Positions 342 through 13,446 of a stretch of 64,000 nt of DNA are shown in pieces (within the stretch, counting starts at the first letter, position 1; every line of letters starts with the position of its first letter). Made by a program: the position numbers and the translations under genes. The stretch comes from Rhodopirellula baltica SH 1. Its GTDB lineage: Bacteria > Planctomycetota > Planctomycetia > Pirellulales > Pirellulaceae. The stretch covers positions 496,001-560,000 of the forward strand of contig NC_005027.1 in NCBI RefSeq assembly GCF_000196115.1, given 5' to 3'. Below the pieces are notes generated by a model. That model did no database searches. It worked only from the letters and a program-made list of their open reading frames with translations, and was not told where the DNA came from.

Positions 342-2192
342 TTATTGACTCGAGGCAGCCGACGCGGCGCGGATGAACTCGCCTCGCGTGGTGGTGCCAT
401 TTGCCTGTGGAAGAACGTCGAGTGGCACGCCGATCGACGCAGCCAACGCTCGCCAGCGTTGTTCCAAGTCGGCGTCCAGCGTTTTGTCCAGTTCGACTGC
501 GTGCCACGGAGCAGCCTCGCTGTACTGCCCGTGCAGTCTCTTCCCACGTGGTTTTCGTGGTGTCCCTTCCGGATAGAGCTTTAGCAATCCGCCAGCGGCA
601 CCCCACCACTGCACGGCGGTAAAGTCAGGCGAGCCCGGCAAGACATCGCTGACATAGATCGTGGCAGAACCATCCGCGTGAAGGTGGTGCTGCAGTTCCG
701 AGATATCGACCTGTTGCACGGGGCGGTCGTGCTGCACGGCTAGAGCCGCTGCGTGCCCGGCGGCTTGTCCCAGTGACATCCACACCGGCTCCAAACGCAA
801 CGCACAGAAGCCGACGTGTGACGACGACACGGCACCCGGTACCAACAAATTGTCGACCTCCTTGGGTAGCAAGACTCCATAGGGAATCTGATACGGCGGC
901 ACCGGGTTGTAGAACTCACCGCTGTGTTTGCCGCCGAATCGCGGACCTTCGTGGTGGGTTCCGTGGCAGTTGTTTCCATAGTCCGCCATGGCAATCGAGT
1001 CGGGGTGAAACTTCGCCCGAGTGCCTTCCGCCGCGTATTCGCTGTCCGCCTGAGTGTAAACGTGGACACCCTGCATGCGGCGGGCTTCACGCACATACAG
1101 TTGTGGCGGCAGATGATCGGTGTCCAGGAATTCGTCTCGGCACCATCCCCATAGTTTGGCTTCTTCGCGAAACTCCGGGGGAACTTCCAAGTCGTTTTGC
1201 AGAAAGTACAGCAGGCCGACTTGGTCTCTCAGATGCTCGGCATGGATCGCTTGGCGTTCTTCGGGTGTGCCGTCTGGCCAACCAAGGTTTTTGCCTGGCA
1301 ATGACAATCGCACCAAGCCTCGCGAGACATCGTTGATGTCGTATTTGCCGCCCGGTAGCACGGGCAGATGAGCCTTGAAAATGCACTTGCTCGGATAGTC
1401 GAAGACACGTTGAATTTTGTCCGACTCAATTGCATCCAGCACGCCCACGAAATCTTCGCGTCGGTAACCAGGCGGAGCAACGGGAGTCACCCGGTTGGTT
1501 TCATCTTGGGTCATGATGAAACGGAAGTTGTACGCTTGCAGTTGATCGTCCGCGGTTTCCGGTGCCAGCGATTCGCCATGTTCGTCACGTCCCTCCCGGC
1601 CGGCTCGCCATGGGACTCCTGCCATGGCCATCAAATCGCCTTCGTAGCTGCCGTCAATAAACACTTTGGCACGAACCGTTTGTGTGTTGCCTTGCGGATC
1701 GGCCAAGGTCGCTGATTCGATGCGATTTCGAGGTGACGTTTCAGTCTGGCTCAGTGTGGTGAGCCGGTGTTGATGGATCAGTTCGACGCGGGGTTGCTCA
1801 TTCAACAAGGCGTGGAAGGCGGCGAGGTTGACTTTGGGTTCGCCAAACGTGCCGTGATACGAAGCCTTCACCTGCGGCGAGTCGACGCCAAAGGTTTCTG
1901 CATAGTGAGTCTCAACACGATTCGCAAAATCCAGGAACGCCCCGCTGAGACTTTCCAGGGAATGAAAGTCGGTGTGAGACAGACCGCTGGTGACCAGACC
2001 ACCGATGCGGTTGCTGGGTTCAACCAGCAGAACGGATTGACCCGATTTGCCAGCAGCCACCGCCGCGGCAATGCCCGACGGTGTGGCTCCGTACACCATC
2101 ACGTCAACGTTTGAATCCGCGGCCGCGTTTGGGACCAATCCAAAACTGACGAACGATATCAGGGTCGTGACCAGCCACGTGCAACGACTCAT
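342..2192 (-). CDS. secreted FAD-dependent oxidoreductase (FAD_oxidored family)
   Basis: A 616-residue protein with a signal peptide (about residues 1-25, ending PNAAA) and then an N-terminal Rossmann motif, VMVYGATPSGIAAAVAAG, followed by the acidic end of beta-2 (VLLVEP) and RIGGLVTSGL. This is the FAD-binding signature of the FAD_oxidored family (PF12831), common in planctomycetes near sulfatases and glycan genes. The Gly-rich motif is GATPSG rather than GxGxxG, as is usual in this family. The C-terminal region holds VREARRMQG and GHAAALAV, also typical. The substrate is unknown and is probably a secreted carbohydrate or organic acid. It lies between the lactate permease and the BNR protein, all on the minus strand. 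Confidence 0.85.
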   Translation of the reverse strand: MSRCTWLVTTLISFVSFGLVPNAAADSNVDVMVYGATPSGIAAAVAAGKSGQSVLLVEPSNRIGGLVTSGLSHTDFHSLESLSGAFLDFANRVETHYAETFGVDSPQVKASYHGTFGEPKVNLAAFHALLNEQPRVELIHQHRLTTLSQTETSPRNRIESATLADPQGNTQTVRAKVFIDGSYEGDLMAMAGVPWRAGREGRDEHGESLAPETADDQLQAYNFRFIMTQDETNRVTPVAPPGYRREDFVGVLDAIESDKIQRVFDYPSKCIFKAHLPVLPGGKYDINDVSRGLVRLSLPGKNLGWPDGTPEERQAIHAEHLRDQVGLLYFLQNDLEVPPEFREEAKLWGWCRDEFLDTDHLPPQLYVREARRMQGVHVYTQADSEYAAEGTRAKFHPDSIAMADYGNNCHGTHHEGPRFGGKHSGEFYNPVPPYQIPYGVLLPKEVDNLLVPGAVSSSHVGFCALRLEPVWMSLGQAAGHAAALAVQHDRPVQQVDISELQHHLHADGSATIYVSDVLPGSPDFTAVQWWGAAGGLLKLYPEGTPRKPRGKRLHGQYSEAAPWHAVELDKTLDADLEQRWRALAASIGVPLDVLPQANGTTTRGEFIRAASAASSQ

Positions 2193-2337
2193 GTTGAAAC
2201 TCCATCGAAAGAAACGCTACGAAGCCCAACATCATAGCCTCTTCGGCGGACGAGTTTTTGACAGGCGAGCCGGTTTGTTTGATGTTGGGTCGATGACCTT
2301 TGCATCGTGAGCTTCGTCACTTCATGCCATCGGATCG

Positions 2338-4020
2338 TCAAGAGATGATCCAACCGACAAGTCCTGCGAACAGCGTGTAGTAGAGGAACGCTGGAAGGGT
2401 GCGGCGTAATACCAAGCCTTCTTGCCCGAGCAAACCGACCACGGCGCAAGCGGCGACCACATTGTGAACGCAGATCATGTTGCCTGCTGCACCTCCGACC
2501 GCTTGGAGTGCGACACCCCACGTCGGATCCGTGCCGATGTGTTGGGCGACCGAAAACTGGAACTCGGAAAACATCATGTTGCTGAACGTGTTGGAGCCAG
2601 CGATGAACGCACCCAACCCACCGACCAACGGCGCAACCAGCGGCCATCCGTTGCCCATCCACTGTCCCGCTTGAGTCGCGAGCACGATGGGCATCTTGTC
2701 CAGCGTTCCGTCGCGACCGCCGTCGGAATGGATGAAGACTTGAACCATGGGAACTGAAAACAGCAGCGGAATCGAAGCCCGAACGATCATGCGAAAACTA
2801 CGTCGCCACGCTAATCGAGTTGCCTCGATTGGTGTCCGGTGAAGTGCAATGGTCAGCAGCGAAACCACCACGAAAATCGACCCGGGCAAATACAACGGTT
2901 CGATGCGAACGCTGACCGAGGAAATACCAAAAATGGACTCGAAATTCCAAGCGACCGAACGGATTGCTTCCGCAACGGGTGCGAACAAACGCGTGAGCAA
3001 TAACAGCAGCGCGACCAGCAAATACGGCGTCCACGCCAGCCAAGTTGGCAGAGCTTTTGTAGGCTTCGGCGACGCGAGTGTGTCTTGTTCCGAGTTTGCT
3101 TGCGACTCTCGTCCGGTCCATTCCTGTGGCCACGTGGATGAATCGGCGAACGTCCACACCTTTCCATCCTTTGGCATCATCCACCCGCGGCGGGCTGCCG
3201 TGGTCACCAAAGTCAAGCCAACCAAGGCACCGATCAGCGACGGGAATTCGGGACCCAGGAAGATCGCCGTCAAAACGTACGGCACCGTCATTGAAAGCGA
3301 GGCGAATAAAGCGAACCGCCAGACCGCCAAGCCTTCGGAGAGTCGACGATTGGCACCGAATGTTTTTGTCAGCACACAAACCATGATCAACGGAATGAAC
3401 AAGCCGACGGTCGCGTGCAGAACCGCAACTTTGATTGCAATCAGGTGCAGGAACTCCGCCCAAGGAACGAAGCCTTGCTCTATCGCCAATGTTTGAGCGG
3501 CCGCTGATCCAGACAACCCTTTGTCGACGCCGACCAAGATGGGTGTTCCGACCGCTCCAAACGAAACCGGCGTGCTTTGGATAATCATGCCACAAAAGAC
3601 CGCCGCCAAAGCTGGGAACCCCAGCCCGACCAACAACGGGACGCACACGGCCGCGGGAGTGCCGAAGCCGGCCGCTCCTTCGATGAACGACCCAAACAAC
3701 CAAGCGATGATGATGGCTTGAACCCGAGCGTCGGGTGAGAGGTTGCTGAAAGAAGACCGGATGGTGCTGATCGCTCCGCTGACCGTCAACGATTCCAGCA
3801 GCAGAATCGCACCGAACACGATGAACAGCAAACTGACTGCAATGATCACGCCTTTGATCGATGCCGCTGCGACTTGCAGGATCGGCACTTGCCAGACCAA
3901 CACCGACAAAGCCGCGGTCAAGAAAAATGCGACCGGCATCGCGCGAGACGCTGGCCAACGCAGCCCAACCAGCAATACACCAACCGTCAAAATCGGCACC
4001 AAAGCCACCAGTGCCAACAT
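2338..4020 (-). CDS. lldP: L-lactate permease (LctP family)
   Basis: A 560-residue polytopic membrane protein with more than ten hydrophobic segments. The stretch [19 protein letters not shown], the motif [13 protein letters not shown] and a C-terminal [18 protein letters not shown] followed by [16 protein letters not shown] are hallmarks of the LctP lactate/glycolate:proton symporters. Its length matches the family norm of about 550 residues. It would import lactate or glycolate across the inner membrane. The ATG at 4018-4020 starts directly with a hydrophobic segment ([17 protein letters not shown]), as expected for this family. The substrate could be glycolate or another 2-hydroxy acid. 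The gene symbol is by family membership; no lactate dehydrogenase lies nearby. Confidence 0.9.
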
Positions 4021-4436: not shown

Positions 4437-5765
4437 TCAGCTTGCTGATGTATCAGATCGTTTCATGCATTGTTGAAAGACCAATCCGACAGCGATCAAT
4501 GACAAGCCGATGATCCAGATCTTTGGTTGCACCCAGAACGCTAGGCCGAGGCAGGAAGCCAGGCCAAGCCAAGGCACGATTGGTGAGAACAAGCGTTCGT
4601 CAGCAGTCAGGCGTGTTGCTGCGAGATTGGTGAGCGCGTAGTAGACCAACACGGTGAAGGCGCTGAACGACCACGTTGTTTCGACATCTCCGATGAGCGC
4701 GAGCGTTCCCACGCCGATGCCCACCGCGATGACAGCACCAGACGGATTTGAGTTTTGAGTCGAGACGGTTGCCAAGCCACGCGGCAAGTCACCGCGGCGT
4801 CCCATGGCGAAGACAACTCTCGATAGGCCGAGAATCAGGTTGAGGAGCACACCTAGCATCGCGGTCACCGCGCCGATGGCAACTAGTTTGGCGACCAATG
4901 GTGAGTTCAGATGATTTGCGACAAGTTGCAAGGGTGCGGTCTGTTGTGAGGTGGAGCTCCAAACGTCAATTCCCGCCGCGGCGACCGCGATGCCGCCAAC
5001 GATTGCGTACAGCAGCGAAGATACAAGCAGTATTACAATGATGGCTCGCGGAATCGTTCGGCGTGGGTTGTGGACTTCTTCGCCGAGTGTCGCGATTCGG
5101 CCGTAGCCCGTGTAGGCGACGAACATCAATGCGCAGGCCTCCAGGAATTGCCGCGTCGCGATTGCTGGGGAATCCGACGCAAAAAAGGGTGTCAAGTTTG
5201 ACGAGCCTTCTCGCCACGCAAACGGCAAACCGGCGATCACGAAGCTGGCCAGTGCGATCAGCGTCATGCTAACGATCGCAATGTTGGTCCAGTTGGATCG
5301 CCGAATACCGCCGAGCAGCAGCAACGTTGTCGCGACCACTGCACCAATGGCCAACGGCACGATCCAGTCGTCATGATCGAATTGGAAAAGTTGCAACGCG
5401 TATCCGGCAAAACCCAAGGCGGCGGTGGCGGCGGAAGCAGACTTGGCACACAAAAACATCCAGCCCGCCGTGAATCCCATCGAAGGTGTCAGCCAGCGGT
5501 AGCCGTATTCGTAGGTGCCACCACTGACGGGGTGAGCCGCCGCCAATTGAGCGCTGCTCAGGCCGTTGAAGGTGGCGACCAACCCAGCGACGAGAATCGC
5601 GAGCACGACTGACGGACCGGTGATTCCGGCCGCGATTCCGATGCTGACAAAGACGCCCGTGCCAACGATGGATCCCAGTCCCATCATCATCGCACCAAAC
5701 AGGCCGACGTCACGTCGAAGTTTCGCAGGCTCGGAAGGGTTGTTCGGTCGCGAGTCAGTGTTCAT
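4437..5765 (-). CDS. APC-family amino acid permease
   Basis: A 442-residue integral membrane protein with about 12 hydrophobic segments. The N-terminus is hydrophilic (about 18 residues), then LFGAMMMGLGSIVGTGVFV, the TM1 unwound-helix GSIVGTG motif of amino acid-polyamine-organocation transporters. HPVSGGTYEYGYRWL matches the conserved P-x-SGG-x-Y stretch at the start of TM3. It would transport an amino acid across the cytoplasmic membrane; the substrate cannot be read from the sequence. It ends with a short hydrophilic tail (CMKRSDTSAS). It stands alone between two gene-poor stretches, on the same strand as the permease downstream. Confidence 0.88.
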   Translation of the reverse strand: MNTDSRPNNPSEPAKLRRDVGLFGAMMMGLGSIVGTGVFVSIGIAAGITGPSVVLAILVAGLVATFNGLSSAQLAAAHPVSGGTYEYGYRWLTPSMGFTAGWMFLCAKSASAATAALGFAGYALQLFQFDHDDWIVPLAIGAVVATTLLLLGGIRRSNWTNIAIVSMTLIALASFVIAGLPFAWREGSSNLTPFFASDSPAIATRQFLEACALMFVAYTGYGRIATLGEEVHNPRRTIPRAIIVILLVSSLLYAIVGGIAVAAAGIDVWSSTSQQTAPLQLVANHLNSPLVAKLVAIGAVTAMLGVLLNLILGLSRVVFAMGRRGDLPRGLATVSTQNSNPSGAVIAVGIGVGTLALIGDVETTWSFSAFTVLVYYALTNLAATRLTADERLFSPIVPWLGLASCLGLAFWVQPKIWIIGLSLIAVGLVFQQCMKRSDTSAS

Positions 5766-6105: not shown

Positions 6106-6891
6106 TCCTTGATACGGCCTACTTGGTTTGGATGTGATGCCTGAATCTTGGGTGGCGACGAACAGGAAAACCAAGGCCACCTCAGGTGATAGCAGTCGTA
6201 GGCCGGACCGGAACGTAGTGGAGTTCCGGCAGGATGAAGTTGCCTTTGTTGGGACTTGTGCTGTTGCCGTAGCTGCGTCCCGTTGGTCCTTGATACGGCC
6301 TACTTGGCTAGGGAGCTGTTTTATGGCGGTGGCCGGGTTGGTTTGTTGCCGTTCGACCTCCCCTCGCTTTGCTCGAACATTCTGCCAGGATGGTGAAGTT
6401 GATTGCAGTCGTAGGCCGGACCGGAACGCAGTGGAGTTCCGGCAGGATGAGGTTGCCATTGGTTGGACTCGTGCTGCTGCCGTAGCTGCGTTCCGTTGGT
6501 CCTTGATACGACCTACTTGGCGGCGTTGGTTTGATACCGCTGGGCCTTCGCTCGCTTTGCTCGAACATTCTGCCAGGATGGTGAAGGTGATGGCAGTCGT
6601 AGGCCGGACCGGAACGCAGTGGAGTTCCGGCAGGATGAAGTGCCTTTGTTGGGACTCGTGCTGTTGCCGTAGCTGCGTCCCGTTGGTCCTTGATACGGCC
6701 TACTTGGCTGGGTTGGTTTGTTGCCGATCGACCTTCGCTCGCTTTGCTCGAACATTCTACCAGGATGGTGAAGGTGATGGCTGCTGTAGGCCGGACCGGA
6801 ACGCAGTGGAGTTCCGGCAGGGTGAAGTTGCCTTTGTTGGGACTTGTGCTGCTGCCGTAGCTGCGTTCCGTTGGTCCTTGATACGGCCTAC
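6106..6891. repeat. tandem hairpin array 1 (four ~106-base units)
   Basis: Four complete copies of one element lie at 6198-6303, 6411-6516, 6599-6703 and 6786-6891, spaced about 187-213 bases apart. A detached unit end (CCTTGATACGGCCTACTTGG) lies at 6106-6125. Each unit opens with GTAGGCCGGACC and closes with GGTCCTTGATACGGCCTAC, giving an outer 8-bp stem (GTAGGCCG/CGGCCTAC) and an adjoining GGACC/GGTCC pairing. An inner hairpin CCGGAAC...GTTCCGG lies near the left end. The spacers are also conserved, with CTTCGCTCGCTTTGCTCGAA followed by a purine-rich stretch. Copy 2 has one change in the outer stem (GACCTAC). Copies 5-10 of the same family lie 4 kb away. Long open frames through the array are a by-product of the repeat period. 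Confidence 0.9.
6131..6184 (+). pseudogene. detached copy of the 3' end of the small membrane-protein gene
   Basis: These 54 bases match 10869-10922, the last coding part of the small membrane-protein gene, with only three differences by eye. They encode DVMPESWVATNRKTKATS against DVIPESWVATNRKTKATS in the intact gene. The fragment lies immediately before the first hairpin unit of array 1, just as the intact copy lies immediately before the first unit of array 2. This indicates that array 1 and the gene tail were copied together, or that the rest of a second gene copy was lost. Confidence 0.8.
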
Positions 6892-7003
6892 TTGGCGGCG
6901 TTGAGATTTCTGATCCGCTAGACTTAATCCCTTGCAAAATTACTTTCAAACATGCACGACACTCCGTCGCCCATGTATCTGTTGTGCGACCTAGCCGTAT
7001 CCC

Positions 7004-7387
7004 ATGCCCGACGATCTTCCATCGACTCCACGTGAAGCGTACCAACGAATCATCGACCAGCTTGTTGATCGGACGCCGGGAGTCACCGCAAAGCGTATCA
7101 TCGCTGGCGACTCGCTCGCTGATGCTGACCCGGATACCGCCGCTGCTTTCACCGAATTTGCGGCATCACTATCGCAATCCCAACGCGAGGTTTTAGCCCA
7201 ACTCTGCATCGCACAACGTCACGGTGCCATTCACGACACCTTGGCTGCATTGTCATGGTGGATAGATTGCGGCGGCGTTTCCCTTCGATACAACGACTCG
7301 GACATGCCTGTTGACATTAGCGGCATGGGGCTACACGGCGACTACGTTGGGCGCGGTCAGGGCTGGGATTGGCCGGATGATGATTGA
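7004..7387 (+). CDS. small conserved-looking protein of unknown function
   Basis: A 127-residue soluble acidic protein starting at ATG 7004. It has no signal peptide or membrane segment. A predicted helical N-terminal half (EAYQRIIDQLVDRTPG, AAAFTEFAASLSQSQREVLA) precedes a distinctive C-terminal motif LSWWIDCGGVSLRY...MGLHGDYVGRGQGWDWP. I have seen this kind of Trp/Gly-rich ending in small bacterial DUF proteins but cannot assign a family with confidence. It lies alone between hairpin array 1 and the IS91-type element. Its regular codon use and strong C-terminal pattern argue that it is real. Confidence 0.7.
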   Translation: MPDDLPSTPREAYQRIIDQLVDRTPGVTAKRIIAGDSLADADPDTAAAFTEFAASLSQSQREVLAQLCIAQRHGAIHDTLAALSWWIDCGGVSLRYNDSDMPVDISGMGLHGDYVGRGQGWDWPDDD

Positions 7388-7764
7388 TACATCACCGGCA
7401 GTTCACCGTGCGTACAACTATTTAGGATTTGGGGTCAGCGAGGTACGAGCCTGAACCCAAATCCTTGTTCAAGGCGAGTCGCTTTGCGGTGGGGACACTC
7501 CGGCGATGGTTCCCTAGTGGTTTTGTCCGCTGCGGCGTGCCCTGGCGAAGGGCTTTGTGCGAGGTTCGGTTCGGCGCGGTGGTTTGGGCAGCCGCTCTGG
7601 AAACGCAGAACGGTGTTTTGAATCGGGCAAGGGCGTTGATCGGCTGTTGGAATCGTGTGCCGGGATGCGTTTCGTGGCAGGTTTATGCGATGGGCGCGCA
7701 GGGGCAGCGGCGTCACCGATCAGATGACTTTGAAAGCGACGTGTTATTGGAGCGACGATCTGGA

Positions 7765-8892
7765 TCATGGCGGCGCTCTGGCTGGTTGCGGCAAAGTTGT
7801 CGTGGCAGGGGTGTAGCCCAGGTTGATCATCGGGCCGCCGCAGTTGGGGCACTGCATCGCGACCGGTTCCGCCATCACGATCTGCTGGCTGCAAGCCAGT
7901 TCGTATTGACGCTCCAGTGAGACAGCGACCAACCAGCGAACCTCCTCGAGGGATCGCTTGCTGCGCGCGTTGGCGAATCCGTAGTGACGCACACGATGAA
8001 AGCCAGCCGGCAACACGTGCTGGAGCCAACGGCGAATGAACTCTTCCACACGCATCTGCATCGGCTTGTATTGACGCGTTCCGCTGCGTTTGACTTGCAG
8101 CGTCAAGCTGGCTTCTTCGAGCGAAGTCGATTCGTCGCACTGCGTGACGCGTCGATTGGCCACCGCACCTCGCATCACGTACGGGGCCAAGTACGCGACC
8201 GCGAATTCGCCGCTGCCGACCGCTTCGCTGTCGACGACGAAGCGTCCCTTCCAGACATCATCGGGGATCGAATCAAAGTACGATTCGGATCGCAGTTTGT
8301 CTTTCAGCTTTCCGCGAAACAACCTCTCCAGAATCTGCTCGGGCACGAACACACTGGCGCGACTGCTTTGCCAGACTCCGCCAGCGTCGATGCCGCCGGC
8401 GGGCACCACGACGTGAACGTGCGGGTGGTAACCCAGGTCACGTCCCCACGTGTGCAGCACGCTGGTGAATCCCGTTTCGCTCACGCCGACATGTCGCGGG
8501 TTGGTCGCTGCTTGCTGAAGTGCCTGAGCTGCCGCACTCATCATGGCGACGTAGAGGACCTTGGGGTGAGCCATCGCAAACTCGCGTAATCCGGCTGGCA
8601 ACGTGAACGTGATTAGAAAGTACTGGCACGGCAACAGGTTTTCTTGAACACTGGCGAGCCACTGTTGCTGACGCTGGTGCTGGCACGCTGGGCAGTGCCG
8701 ATTGCAGCACGAGCGAGGCACATGAGTGACCTCACCGCAACCGGAGCAGGCATACTGGATCGTGCCCAGAGAATCTTCCCGGCACGCCATCACGGCGCGG
8801 AGGACCTTCTTCTGTTGGGCGGTCATTCGTGTTCCATGCTTCGCGATGTACTGGTCGCCATAGCGTTTCAAGACCATTGAAACGCCTTTCAT
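7765..8892 (-). CDS. IS91-family (Y2, HUH) transposase
   Basis: A 375-residue rolling-circle transposase that nicks and joins single-stranded DNA. The N-terminal zinc-binding domain has CSGC (residues 49-52) and CCNRHCPAC (62-70). The metal-binding HUH region is HPHVHV at 156-160, and the two catalytic tyrosines sit in YLAPYVMRG (Tyr234, Tyr238). A second CPNCGG motif lies near the C-terminus. Its ATG overlaps the stop of the upstream recombinase by four bases (ATGA), so the two were translationally coupled. The length and all motifs are intact, so this gene could still be active in trans. An internal start at Met6 (8877) is possible. Confidence 0.93.
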   Translation of the reverse strand: MKGVSMVLKRYGDQYIAKHGTRMTAQQKKVLRAVMACREDSLGTIQYACSGCGEVTHVPRSCCNRHCPACQHQRQQQWLASVQENLLPCQYFLITFTLPAGLREFAMAHPKVLYVAMMSAAAQALQQAATNPRHVGVSETGFTSVLHTWGRDLGYHPHVHVVVPAGGIDAGGVWQSSRASVFVPEQILERLFRGKLKDKLRSESYFDSIPDDVWKGRFVVDSEAVGSGEFAVAYLAPYVMRGAVANRRVTQCDESTSLEEASLTLQVKRSGTRQYKPMQMRVEEFIRRWLQHVLPAGFHRVRHYGFANARSKRSLEEVRWLVAVSLERQYELACSQQIVMAEPVAMQCPNCGGPMINLGYTPATTTLPQPARAPP

Positions 8893-9805
8893 GAAAGGCC
8901 TTGCTCGGCGACGTCCCCGTTCATGATCTGAGCGACGATCTGCCTGGCTCTTTCGTCACCCAGGCGTGTCAGGTGGAGGTAAACCTCGGTTGCTTGCAAG
9001 TTCTTGTGTCCGAGGTAGCCTTGCAGAACCTTGAGGTTGACTCCGGCGTCCAGCATCGCGGTGGCGTAGGAATGCCTCAGTGTGTGCGGAGTCAATCCGG
9101 AGTCTTGCCAGCCCAGCGACTCGGTGACTTTCGTGAACCCACGCTGGATCGTCCTGGCACTGATGGGTTGGTCAGCCTTCGACGCCGGAGTGTTTCTCTG
9201 CGTCGCCGGAAACAACCAGTTTGGATTGCGATGGGTTGCCCAGTGGGCACGAAACGCATCGAGGGTAGCTTGAGGCAGTGGGACTTCGCGTTGCCGGTGT
9301 CCTTTGGTGGTGCAAACGCGGAGCATCATTCGATCGGCGTCCACGTCTTGGGGTCGCAAGTGGCGAACGTCGACGCCACGGAGTCCGCAGGAGTACATGG
9401 CTCGAAAGATGACTTGCAGATGGGACGCCACGGTGGCGTCAATGAGTTGCCAGCATCGCTCGGGTACCAAGACCATTGGGAGCGTGTTGGACTTGGGGAA
9501 ACGGATTGCTTGCAGAGTTGGGCCAGTCGCGAGGAACGGTCACGCGAAAGAAGAATTTCAATGCTCCGACGATCGGCCGCATCGAACCGAGCTGCAGTTG
9601 CTGTCTTCGCAGCAAGACATACTGCCGGACCTGTGCTTCGGAGAGTTTTTCCGGGGAGCAAGCGAAGTGCTCAGCCAAGTGGGCGATGGCATTGCGGTAG
9701 CAGGCGATGGTGCTGGGTTGCTTTCCGCTGAGCAGCAAGTCTTCTCGAAACCGCTTGGCGAGGTCAGAGTGAAAGCGAGCGAGCGTGGCCTTTTTTTGAA
9801 GTCAT
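8889..9805 (-). pseudogene. IS91-associated tyrosine recombinase, broken by two frameshifts
   Basis: The C-terminal part (8889-9476) has the catalytic core: Arg in SCGLRGVDVR, HTLRHSYAT, LGHKNLQATEVYLH. The N-terminal SAM-like part (FREDLLLSGKQPSTIACYR, LKFFFRVTVPRDWP) is in another frame (9439 to about 9790). The frames rejoin if one base is removed near 9516-9521, restoring RDWPTLQAIRFPKSNTLPMV. A second one-base problem lies in the run of seven T (9791-9797): ATG at 9805 reads MTSKK and then leaves frame, while one A fewer on the coding strand gives MTSKKATLARFHSDLAKRFRED. AGGAA lies upstream of that ATG. Restored, the protein would be about 305 residues, normal for this family. Decay, sequencing error and programmed +1 shifting are all possible; two lesions favour decay. 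Confidence 0.85.
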
Positions 9806-10031
9806 CGTCGAGTTCCTGACGAGGGAGTGAAGTGAAAGACAGGAGACACCATAGTCACCGAAGCAGTCTCCACCCCAACCCCGCCGCAAAGCGGCTCACT
9901 TGAACATGGGTTTTACGACAGGTCTTCAGCACATGTTCCTTGGTTGGTCACGCGGGCCGGCCTTGGTACAATCTTTCGTCGTTCAGGCATCTCTCGCTTC
10001 GTTTAGGGCGGTGTTGTAAAAACCTTCCGTT

Positions 10032-10475
10032 ATGCGATTGGGTCGAATGGAACCTTTTGTCCCAGCCATTTGGAATGTTTTGCATGACGGTGGCATCCAA
10101 CGAATCGAAGGGACCATTCCCGGTGACATTCATGTCCACGTTTCGATCGAATACCTACGCGAGCGTTTTGGCGATGAGGGCGATACCATCATCGTCACAC
10201 TTTTCGACTGCGATGTGTTTTCGCACCGGCTTAACAACGCCGAACATGCGGTCTCTGACCTTACTGCGATCGCGAATGAGTCGTTGACAATTCTCAGCAC
10301 CGAAATGGAGGGCCCATTGTGTCGAGTCTTCACGGGTGTTGGTGTGCTGGAAGTGAGGTGCGACGGTGGTGCCATTTCTCTCGATTCCGGACGCAATGTT
10401 TCATTGGAAGAACTGATTTCCGTAGCGGAGGCGTATTGGGACGAATGGGAATTAAGGTCCAAGAGTTCTCGATAA
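10032..10475 (+). CDS. hypothetical protein, 147 residues
   Basis: A soluble acidic protein with no signal peptide or membrane segment. The N-terminal part (FVPAIWNVLHDGGIQRIEGTI) and a beta-rich middle (DIHVHVSIEYLRERF, DTIIVTLFDCDVF) suggest an alpha/beta fold, and the C-terminus is helical (SLEELISVAEAYWDEWEL). This pattern resembles small immunity-type or DUF proteins of bacterial accessory regions, but I do not recognise a family. Met6 (10047) is an alternative start. It lies between the IS91-type element and a small membrane-protein gene, in a region rich in repeats. Confidence 0.6.
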   Translation: MRLGRMEPFVPAIWNVLHDGGIQRIEGTIPGDIHVHVSIEYLRERFGDEGDTIIVTLFDCDVFSHRLNNAEHAVSDLTAIANESLTILSTEMEGPLCRVFTGVGVLEVRCDGGAISLDSGRNVSLEELISVAEAYWDEWELRSKSSR

Positions 10476-10634
10476 CCATTGGTCGCAGAGCATCGGATTG
10501 AATTTGGTACCTTGTTTCTCTTGCAACACCGAGGTCGACATTGTTGGAAAGTCCTTTCGAATCTACCAAACCTCGGATCTCGCTTGCTTCGTTTTGGCGA
10601 GTCGACTTCGCTGGGGTCCTTTTTGTTCGTTCAG

Positions 10635-10949
10635 ATGACTCGTAAACCCGCCGCTCCATTCTTAGAATTCCTCTCAGGGCTGATTTTGCTCGTTGGGTTT
10701 GGCGTCGCGTTCTTGCTGCTCTGGTTCGTCACGCTGGTTTTGCTTGCTGGTCTCTTGTACGCAGGTTTGTCGGTGGTGACGAACTGGAGTGTGGTCGCGC
10801 GGATCGGTTTCAGCTTTTTCGCAGCGTTGGTCATTCTCAAGGCCGTTGCGTTGGTCGGCGCGGTCTTCGATGTGATCCCTGAATCTTGGGTGGCGACGAA
10901 CAGGAAGACTAAGGCCACCTCAACTCTCCCGCCAGGAGAGCGAGGGTGA
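10635..10949 (+). CDS. small membrane protein, 104 residues
   Basis: Starting at ATG 10635 the product has a short basic N-terminus (MTRKPAAPFLEF) and then two or three hydrophobic segments (FLSGLILLVGFGVAFLLLWF, LVLLAGLLYAGLSVV, FSFFAALVILKAVALVGAVF). A longer frame from 10479 has no plausible coding content before this ATG. The hydrophilic tail (SWVATNRKTKATS, then TLPPGERG) runs directly into hairpin array 2, and its last codons look like array spacer sequence. A 54-base copy of the tail precedes array 1. The function is unknown. Confidence 0.6.
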   Translation: MTRKPAAPFLEFLSGLILLVGFGVAFLLLWFVTLVLLAGLLYAGLSVVTNWSVVARIGFSFFAALVILKAVALVGAVFDVIPESWVATNRKTKATSTLPPGERG

Positions 10950-10957
10950 TGGCCGTC

Positions 10958-12045
10958 GTAGGCCGGACCGGAACGCAGTGGAGTTCCGGCAGGATTCAGT
11001 TGCCTTTGGTGGGATTCGTGCTGTTGCCGTAGCTGCGTTCCGTTGGGCCTTGATACGGCCTACTTGGCTAAGGAGCTGTTATGAGGTGGAAGGCGGATTG
11101 GTTTGTTCCGTTGATGGCTGTCGTAGGCCGGACCGGAACGCAGTGGAGTTCCGGCAGGATGAAGTTGCCTTTGGTGGGACTCGTGCCGTTGCCGTAGCTG
11201 CGTCCCGTTGGTCCTTGATACGGCCTACTTGGCTGGGTTGGTTTGCTACCGCTGGACCTTCGCTCGCTTTGCTCGAACATTCTGCCAGGAGGGTGAAGAT
11301 GATGGCTGCTGTAGGCCGGACCGGAACGCAGTGGAGTTCCGGCAGGATGAAGTTGCCTTTGGTGGGACTCGTGCCGTTGCCGTAGCTGCGTCCCGTTGGT
11401 CCTTGATACGGCCTACTTGGCTGGGTTGGTTTGCTACCGCTGGACCTTCGCTCGCTTTGCTCGAACATTCTGCCAGGAGGGTGAAGATGATGGCTGCTGT
11501 AGGCCGGACCGGAACGCAGTGGAGTTCCGGCAGGATGAAGTGCATTTGGTGGGACTTGTGCTGCTGCCGTAGCTGCGTCCCGTTGGTCCTTGATACGGCC
11601 TACCCGGCTGCGTTGATTTGTTCCGTTGAGCCTTCGCTCGCTTTGCTCGAACATTCTGCCAGGAGGGTGAAGATGATGGCTGTCGTAGGCCGGACCGGAA
11701 CGCAGTGGAGTTCCGGCAGGGTGAGGTTTCCTTTGGTGGGATTCGTGCTGTGCCGTAGCTGCGTCCCGCTGGTCCTTGATACGGCCTACTTGGCTGGGTT
11801 GGTTTGTTCCGTTGGGCCTTCGCTCGCTTTGCTCGAACATTCTGGCTGGATGGTGAAGGTGATGGCTGCTGTAGGCCGGACCGGAACGCAGTGGAGTTCC
11901 GGCAGGATGAGGTTGCCATTGGTGGGGCTCGTGCTGTTGCCGTAGCTGCGTCCCGTTGGTCCTTGATACGGCCTACTTGGCTGCGTTGGTTTGTTGCCGT
12001 TGGACCTTCGCTCGCTTAGCTCGAACCTTCTGGCGGGAGGGTGAA
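10958..12045. repeat. tandem hairpin array 2 (six ~106-base units)
   Basis: Six units of the array-1 family lie at 10958-11063, 11123-11228, 11311-11416, 11499-11603, 11685-11789 and 11871-11976. From the second unit on the period is 186-188 bases. The outer stem GTAGGCCG/CGGCCTAC and the inner stem CCGGAAC/GTTCCGG are kept in every unit, while most changes fall in the loop (TTGGTGGGAC/TTGTTGGGAC and similar) or the spacer. A last decayed spacer (CTCGCTTAGCTCGAACCTTC) runs to about 12045. The array fills the space between two converging genes. The near-exact 188-base period suggests recent unequal crossing over. Confidence 0.92.
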
Positions 12046-12100
12046 GATGGTGGTGGGGGATCGCGATCGTTTGCTTTCCGCTTCGATTCCTTGGTTCCGA

Positions 12101-13276
12101 TCAAGCGGCTCGTAGGAGCACGCGGTTGCGGGGGACTTTTTCGAGCGACTCGCCGCCGTACCGGGCGAGTGTTCCGTTGGCGACTTCGTAGCCGTGACGA
12201 AACAAAAGACTGAACTCTTGATGATTCAAACGGCGAAGCGTCGTTTCTATGCGTGAGACTCGATCGACCTCGTCGTCCGTCAGTGAGGGTTGTTCGGTCC
12301 AATGTGATTCGCGAATGCCGGATCCGTTTGCGTTGTCTTCGCCGGTGCCATGAACACGCAGGGTGGAGCGTTTGCTCTTCAAACCGAGACGCAAGTACGC
12401 ACCGCTACCAGGATTTTTTTTGAAGTGGTCGATCAACATCCTCGCGCGTAGGCTGCGGACTTGATCGGTTGCCACGTCAACCAAACGCATGGAAGCTTTC
12501 AGGTATCCAGGACGCCATTTCGATCGACGCGATTCGCTGCCCAGTGGTCGCGATGCGTCGCAGACGATCAAGAAGTCGGTGCCGTCGACCAATCCGATGC
12601 CGGGTTTGAACAGGGCTTCCACGCCGAGGTTGTCGTACACGCCGCCATCCCAAAGGTGCAACCGTTTGTACTTGGCAGGGATGGAGTGCCACTGGTCGCC
12701 TCGCATCTCTTTCCAGCGATGGTGTTTGGCTTTGACAATCAACGGGCCAATCAAACCAGGCACGGCGGCCGAAGCGGCGAGTGCGTGTGAAAGGCGAAGT
12801 TTGGGATCGACGATGTATTTGGTTTGGTAGTCGCCCATCAAGTCACGTTGGAACCGCCAGTTCTTGCCCGTTTGATAGCAAGTCGCGTTGATCAGCCATC
12901 GAGGCGATTCGGGCAGGTCGGCAAGGTCACCGTTGATTTTCCAGCGACGTTCGAGTTCGTCACCTAACACCGCGGCGCGGCCGCTGAGGATTTGCCAAGG
13001 GAACATCAGCGATTTGATCACGTAGGATCGCTGCAGGTTCTGAGTGGTCAACAGATGCAGGATTTTCGGGACCACCTCGTGCAGGTATTCCGAACTGCTG
13101 GGCCAGCGATTGTTGGTTGCGGAAAACACCAGTCCCGCGGCGAGGCTGCCGCCGGAAACGCTGGAGATCATGTGGACGTTTCCGAGCAAGTCTTCTCGTG
13201 CGAGTCGCGCCAGGACACCCAGGTGAAACACGGTGGCGCGAACGCCACCTCCCGAGAAAGCCAGGGCGATTTTCAT
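12101..13276 (-). CDS. patatin-like phospholipase
   Basis: The product (391 residues from the ATG at 13274-13276) opens with MKIALAFSGGGVRATVFHLG, the oxyanion Gly-rich loop of patatins. The nucleophile elbow is SSVSGGS (serine in SVSGG instead of the usual GTSAG), and the catalytic aspartate is in LWDGGVYDNLG, the DGG/A motif. Patatins are serine-aspartate acyl hydrolases of lipids. The open frame extends 45 codons upstream to 13411, but that part crosses the terminator hairpin of the neighbouring sulfatase and does not look like protein, so I chose the internal ATG. The C-terminal third (DVATDQVRSLRARMLIDHF) is helical. It is likely cytoplasmic, with no signal peptide. Confidence 0.88.
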   Translation of the reverse strand: MKIALAFSGGGVRATVFHLGVLARLAREDLLGNVHMISSVSGGSLAAGLVFSATNNRWPSSSEYLHEVVPKILHLLTTQNLQRSYVIKSLMFPWQILSGRAAVLGDELERRWKINGDLADLPESPRWLINATCYQTGKNWRFQRDLMGDYQTKYIVDPKLRLSHALAASAAVPGLIGPLIVKAKHHRWKEMRGDQWHSIPAKYKRLHLWDGGVYDNLGVEALFKPGIGLVDGTDFLIVCDASRPLGSESRRSKWRPGYLKASMRLVDVATDQVRSLRARMLIDHFKKNPGSGAYLRLGLKSKRSTLRVHGTGEDNANGSGIRESHWTEQPSLTDDEVDRVSRIETTLRRLNHQEFSLLFRHGYEVANGTLARYGGESLEKVPRNRVLLRAA

Positions 13277-13410
13277 CTTGGTTTGCGAGTGGATATCCGG
13301 AAACACGGGCGAGAAGAACACGCTGAGGTTACCGGCGATGACAGTTTCATCGCCACGGCAATCCTGCCGGATTTTGCGGGCGTTCCAGGGGCTTGGGGGC
13401 GGGGTGCGCA

Positions 13411-13446
13411 CAAAAAAAGGGCATCCATTGGTGAATGGATGCCCTT
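13411..13446 (-). terminator. intrinsic terminator of the sulfatase gene
   Basis: A perfect 11-bp stem, GGGCATCCATT (13419-13429) with AATGGATGCCC (13434-13444), closes a four-base loop. Read on the minus strand it is followed by seven T (the A run at 13412-13418). It lies about 40 bases after the sulfatase stop and just before the patatin start, so it separates the two transcripts. Confidence 0.9.

Follow-up and report, generated by a model that had tools for sequence, protein, structure and literature searches.

Two tandem arrays of GTAG-tagged REP dimers in Rhodopirellula baltica SH 1 and the apparent lack of their matching transposase

Passages of PMC8266576, which treats the E. coli system, describe a BIME as two inverse REPs plus a linker, frequently in consecutive tandem copies, and report that TnpA-REP cleaves single-stranded REP in vitro. 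According to the consulted sections of PMC3733652 (Di Nocera, De Gregorio and Rocco 2013), dimers of GTAG REPs can be multiplied, along with the DNA beside them, into large tandem clusters; R. baltica is listed there among the species in which different GTAG REP families coexist, and is credited with very many tyrosine transposase genes bordered by repeats. Further REP literature is found in parts of PMC2817692 and PMC6006769. Our literature search found no paper joining Rhodopirellula with "repetitive extragenic palindromic", and a word search of the main text of the RepRanger paper (PMC12306157) gave no mention of Planctomycetes or Rhodopirellula.

We report on ten hairpin units in a 64,000-nucleotide stretch of the R. 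baltica SH 1 genome (the window; positions 496001-560000 of the single 7,145,576-base contig), and consider it highly probable that they are BIMEs, i.e. head-to-head heterodimers of two GTAG-tagged REPs that were placed by a RAYT and then amplified in tandem. With the families in the consulted sections of PMC3733652 they share the GTAG tag, the short GC-rich stem, the head-to-head dimers and the pairing of different stems in one dimer, and the GCCGGA/GCCGTA family is likely one of those listed there. With the E. coli BIMEs and REPtron, as presented in passages of PMC8266576, they share the inverse REPs, the linker, the tandem copies and a GTAG beside an interrupted stem; the difference is that tnpA-REP is present and studied in E. 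coli, whereas no gene of the R. baltica genome reaches the NCBIfam cut-off. The units are therefore a known kind of repeat in an organism where such families have already been reported. A reading of the letters alone (the sequence-only reading) had been aware of no described family with this layout, a statement that falls with the BIME layout in the cited part of PMC8266576 and the R. baltica GTAG REPs named in that of PMC3733652; of the three options it offered, the REP-like palindrome stands, and the structured RNA and the recombination target are very unlikely. A supposed new repeat family is hence taken off the list and tied to a studied REP/BIME system, and the find seems ordinary apart from the apparently missing matching enzyme in the R. 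baltica genome.

Two arrays of head-to-head REP dimers

Repeat search combined with the REP pattern gave an array 1 of four head-to-head dimers (6198-6891) and an array 2 of six (10958-11976), each unit being 105-106 bp long, which agrees with the four units near 6.2-6.9 kb and six near 11-12 kb noticed beforehand. Specifically, array 1 has REP-Y on the plus strand at 6198-6230, 6411-6443, 6599-6631 and 6786-6818, and REP-Z on the minus strand at 6266-6303, 6479-6516, 6666-6703 and 6854-6891. In array 2 the plus-strand REP-Y copies lie at 10958-10990, 11123-11155, 11311-11343, 11499-11531, 11685-11717 and 11871-11903, and the minus-strand REP-Z copies at 11026-11063, 11191-11228, 11379-11416, 11566-11603, 11752-11789 and 11939-11976. 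Moreover, a fragment at 6106-6122 (minus strand; repeat family D4; genome position 502122) represents a truncated right-hand REP of which the GTAG-tagged end alone is left. The tandem-repeat scores of the window arrays, 952 and 1577, are beyond chance.

Within a unit the two palindromes are separated by a linker of 34-35 bp, and the spacers between units are mostly 81-82 bp, while 59 bp separate the first two units of array 2. The distances between unit starts are 213, 188 and 187 bp in array 1 and 165, 188, 188, 186 and 186 bp in array 2, so that the proposed period of 186-188 bp holds for all intervals except the first of each array (213 and 165 bp). A coding repeat was considered and rejected, as four of the eight within-array spacings are not multiples of three.

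Array 1 is flanked by the amino-acid permease gene (4437-5765) and a DUF6547 ORF, both reading away from it, and array 2 by a plus-strand ORF without family match and a patatin-like gene (12101-13411), the two window arrays being the loci that the annotation covered. By analogy with what has been proposed for E. coli, effects on the flanking genes are possible, with the REPs acting as transcript 3' hairpins or gyrase targets. Each array is also preceded by a 57-bp segment, at 6128-6184 and at 10866-10922 (93% identical; repeat family D5), the latter inside the 3' part of the ORF at 10479-10949. The segment was probably copied along with the array edge, and perhaps the whole array was duplicated together with the end of the preceding ORF.

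The region between the arrays has the look of a cassette-like block (6977-10480, edges set by eye), in which small ORFs, 7004-7387 (DUF6547) and 10032-10475, lie beside inverted repeats ending in GTTRNRY-like cores, which we take to be attC-like. One such repeat (9903-10037) has seven matches, two of them partial, between small ORFs in the relative G120 (L147, 1-5300), an arrangement like that of an integron cassette array. The window also holds an IS91-family transposase with an adjoining tyrosine recombinase (7765-9476), and an ORF pair that by eye looks similar splits a Y1_Tnp gene at genome position 1335684-1338670 (L029). That the arrays themselves are recombination sites, integron attC-like, of this block is a reading to which we give next to no credence: the block does have attC-like inverted repeats that recur in G120 beside small ORFs, but these differ in sequence from the REPs (9903-10037 is an example), and the same REPs recur at numerous further sites, in three genomes on both sides of RAYT genes.

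Structure of the REP and of the dimer

Each unit consists of two GTAG-tagged palindromes placed head-to-head, GTAG+GCCGGA...TCCGGC on the plus strand and GTAG+GCCGTA...TACGGC on the minus strand. A typical unit starts with GTAG-GCCGGA-CCGGAACGCAGTGGAGT-TCCGGC and ends as the reverse complement of GTAG-GCCGTA-TCAAGGACCAACGGGACGCAGC-TACGGC, and the order of GTAG-palindrome followed by inverted palindrome-CTAC is the same in all ten. The stem and loop sequences of E. coli REPs differ from those of R. baltica. The 20 window REPs are 33 or 38 nt long (31-39 nt at other loci), and the palindrome comes directly after the unpaired 5' GTAG tag. The strict pattern fits 19 of them, the REP at 6479-6516 having one changed stem base.

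The 8-bp outer stem, the GGACC/GGTCC pairing and the inner stem that had been proposed for the unit are all visible in the predicted fold of the window units. The outer stem arises because both palindromes share the tag and the first stem bases. Whole units fold at -33 to -59 kcal/mol, with z values of -2.0 to -7.5 relative to mononucleotide shuffles (nine dimers), and the authors of PMC3733652 presume that REPs are often transcribed and function as RNA. These two observations favour a reading of the unit as a structured non-coding RNA or cis-acting mRNA element in which the whole 106-nt hairpin is selected.

The pairing pattern points elsewhere. The REP pattern used, GTAGGCCGNA-N16..28-TNCGGC, leaves one stem pair free, while the remaining stem bases are fixed and hence uninformative. 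Among its 76 matches in the R. baltica genome the free pair is G-C in 54, T-A in 21 and A-C in one; Watson-Crick pairing is thus kept in 75 of the 76 matches (40 of 41 distinct sequences), with two pair types, which is the compensatory change in the stems that had been suggested as a check. As background, 43 listed rows came from genomes with four matches or fewer, and the free position pairs in 16 of them. Dimers were then compared at this position: 27 head-to-head dimers were recognised in the loci fetched from the own genome, 22 of them in the window arrays and L022, L025 and L037 (a changed base hid the tenth window unit from the dimer script). The free position pairs within the REP in 53 of 54 REPs and across the unit in six of 27 dimers, unit-long pairing failing in the other 21. 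Since the compensatory change is found within the REP and not across the unit, the conserved hairpin is the single REP, and the unit-long hairpin, which may form as a physical structure according to the folding predictions, is a by-product of two related palindromes in inverted order. The earlier notion of stems kept while loops vary applies, accordingly, to each single REP and fails for the unit-long hairpin at the one informative position. Other data also speak against a structured RNA: Rfam gave no match at the gathering score in the 64-kb window, the linkers differ between loci, and array 1 sits between two genes that read divergently outward. Taken as a whole, we regard an RNA element of unit length as very unlikely.

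Copies across the genome and origin of the arrays

The palindrome pattern has 76 matches in the genome (41 forward and 35 reverse) and none for the reversed-pattern control; the figure is a lower bound, as the pattern needs at least 32 nt and omits 31-nt variants at 640 and 6300 kb. The matches are spread over 19 places more than 20 kb apart. Tandem copies (at least two) are present near 58, 502, 507, 640, 805, 1325, 2456, 6300 and 6979 kb, with periods, in this order, of about 170, 188, 188, 134, 150, 118, 121, 207 and 193 bp. Linker similarity is 85% inside a locus and 45% across loci (24 dimers, six loci), and the corresponding values for inter-dimer spacers are 79% and 37% (16 spacers, four loci); these comparisons cover the loci at which the script gave dimers, and the arrays at 58 and 6300 kb fall outside them. 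Given that linkers and spacers are specific to the locus, what moves is the REP or the dimer, and the period is a property of each locus.

These data also bear on whether the 188-bp unit is a MITE or transposon copy whose whole period moved as one element, for which its inverted-repeat ends and near-identical copies might argue. Against this, other loci with the same REPs have other periods (about 170, 134, 150, 121, 207 and 193 bp), the spacers are unrelated where compared (the 37% between four loci), and the spacer matches intergenic DNA of a relative, G121. We therefore hold such an element to be extremely improbable and retain BIMEs amplified in place as our reading.

The site in relatives provides some insight into how the arrays might have grown. 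G121 is 84-87% identical to R. baltica in the flanking DNA, its permease gene adjoins the patatin gene, and it has one spacer-like stretch between them (the contig gave 4.9 kb). The GTAGGCCG tag is absent from this site and from four other fetched stretches of relatives (L145-L148). The gap between permease and patatin genes is about 0.2 kb in G122 and about 2 kb in G120, and the fetched stretches of G127 and G123 showed no permease gene close to the patatin gene; the evidence for an empty site comes mainly from G121 and G122. As the permease/patatin sites of relatives are without the REP tag, the block at 6.1-12.0 kb would most simply be an addition in R. baltica. In blastn searches the single, REP-free intergenic stretch of G121 matches the right part of the first spacer of array 1 (6304-6410) over 72 bp and three inner spacers of array 2 over 56-64 bp. 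It also aligns with the last spacer copy of array 2 (11977-12053), which passes into the intergenic sequence ahead of the patatin-like gene, the match likewise running on into the downstream flank. With one spacer-like stretch and no REP in G121, the dimer was probably inserted next to host DNA, and the two were subsequently multiplied. The locus hence offers an example of BIME array growth in which the spacer of the tandem period is matched to single-copy intergenic DNA of a relative.

We suggest the following course of events. A RAYT, by our reasoning an HUH/Y1 nuclease that acts on single strands and recognises GTAG together with the hairpin, would once have inserted a REP dimer into the intergenic DNA that separates the amino-acid permease gene from the patatin-like gene. 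Slippage or unequal recombination would then have amplified this dimer locally, along with about 82 bp of the host DNA, into tandem copies with the 186-188-bp period, and the array would later have been duplicated, or split around the cassette-like block, to leave two arrays about 4 kb apart; the order of these steps is our inference. With the cognate RAYT lost from the genome, the copies would probably be immobile now and would change by recombination alone.

Among 119 genomes of the host family 69 have a REP match, most of them one to five, which is within the control range, and ten have at least 20 matches (their controls giving 0 to 8). In the genus (13 genomes) seven have 76, 80, 75, 70, 34, 29 and 20 matches and the other six 0-4. 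The family is consequently patchy in its distribution, as known REP families are. REPs of the R. baltica type were also seen on three contigs (L141-L143) of a metagenome bin labelled Candidatus Kuenenia stuttgartiensis, possibly as misbinned DNA.

The transposase

Twenty loci around Y1-transposase genes were examined, 17 in relatives and three in R. baltica itself. At three of the 20, L070 (G101), L073 (G083) and L079 (G028), GTAGGCCG REPs bracket a RAYT gene (two adjacent ones in L073), and the other 17 have no such REPs on both sides; other GTAG hairpins are present on both sides in L071, L081 and L083, and most of the remaining loci have none or stray ones. That the units might prove to be part of a known transposon, as the sequence-only reading allowed, is borne out to the extent that REPs of the family flank RAYT genes in these three relatives. 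Of the four RAYT proteins encoded at the three loci, the others are 80, 99 and 69% identical to the first, and one from each locus was scanned against the NCBIfam model REP_Tyr_transpos, scoring 170-178 bits (cut-off 80). In the REPtrons of G083, G101 and G028 the RAYT is bordered left and right by GTAGGCCGGA...TCCGGC REPs, as in the REP-Y stem of R. baltica; their loops differ from those of the R. baltica REPs, and none of the RAYTs of L070, L073 and L079 was accompanied by the T-A (GCCGTA) variant seen in R. baltica.

A profile of the cognate enzyme, built from an alignment of RAYTs from relatives, returned 30 loci (L090-L119), the first three being the genes of L070, L073 and L079. GTAG REPs with different stems occur at L098, L101, L102, L106, L107, L108, L112 and others; eight of the 30 are without a GTAG hairpin and several have a stray one alone. 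Within the genus, the RAYT lies between REP arrays with stems GCCAGG, GCCATG or GTCAGG at L150, L151, L152 and L153/L155 (one locus), and at L149 there is no GTAG hairpin beside the RAYT gene. Going by these sequence comparisons, different RAYTs tend to go with different REP stems.

In the R. baltica genome the cognate profile has no match at E<=1e-10, and the REP_Tyr_transpos model has nine matches, all below the cut-off of 80, with 69.1 bits for the best. An approximate RAYT-like protein query likewise found no match there. The best 25 rows from tblastn of RAYTs against the loci fetched from the own genome were all divergent Y1 transposases, none at the REP loci of the family, and none of the 11 own Y1_Tnp matches has a GTAGGCCG REP within 1.5 kb (perfect stems of at least 6 bp). 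As no own RAYT scores above the cut-off, the R. baltica copies look orphaned, or else moved by a more distant enzyme.

A similar situation is seen elsewhere in the genus. None of the four genomes with 70-80 REP matches (R. baltica, G115, G119 and G127, of which G115 and G119 are draft assemblies split into many contigs) matches the cognate RAYT profile, and just G127 has a RAYT above the cut-off (84.3 bits). The seven genus genomes that match the profile have 0-34 GTAGGCCG REPs each. REP-rich genomes without the cognate RAYT argue against a simple rule of RAYT present, REP abundant. It is conceivable, if unlikely, that these genomes maintain, and even multiply, their 70-80 copies without a canonical cognate RAYT, the dimers being moved by one of the remaining divergent Y1 transposases or kept for a host function. 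A genus in which the REP-richest genomes lack the cognate transposase is in any case a natural test of REP persistence without a mover.

Other REP families in the genus were seen next to Y1 transposases. Beside own Y1_Tnp genes, L015 has a separate family (GTAGCTGACCGAGG) and L018 one GTAGGCCATG hairpin. At L015/L039 (genome 5209825-5211014) this second REP family, GTAGCTGACCGAGGCC(T)CTCGGTCAG, flanks a 238-aa Y1 transposase on both sides, with three copies in steps of 205-207 bp on one side and a variant copy on the other. Finally, L112 (G045, same genus; 1447-3289) has a stop-free RAYT beside tandem GTAGGGCCGG head-to-head dimers in steps of 224-241 bp, an arrangement like that of the window, here accompanied by the enzyme.
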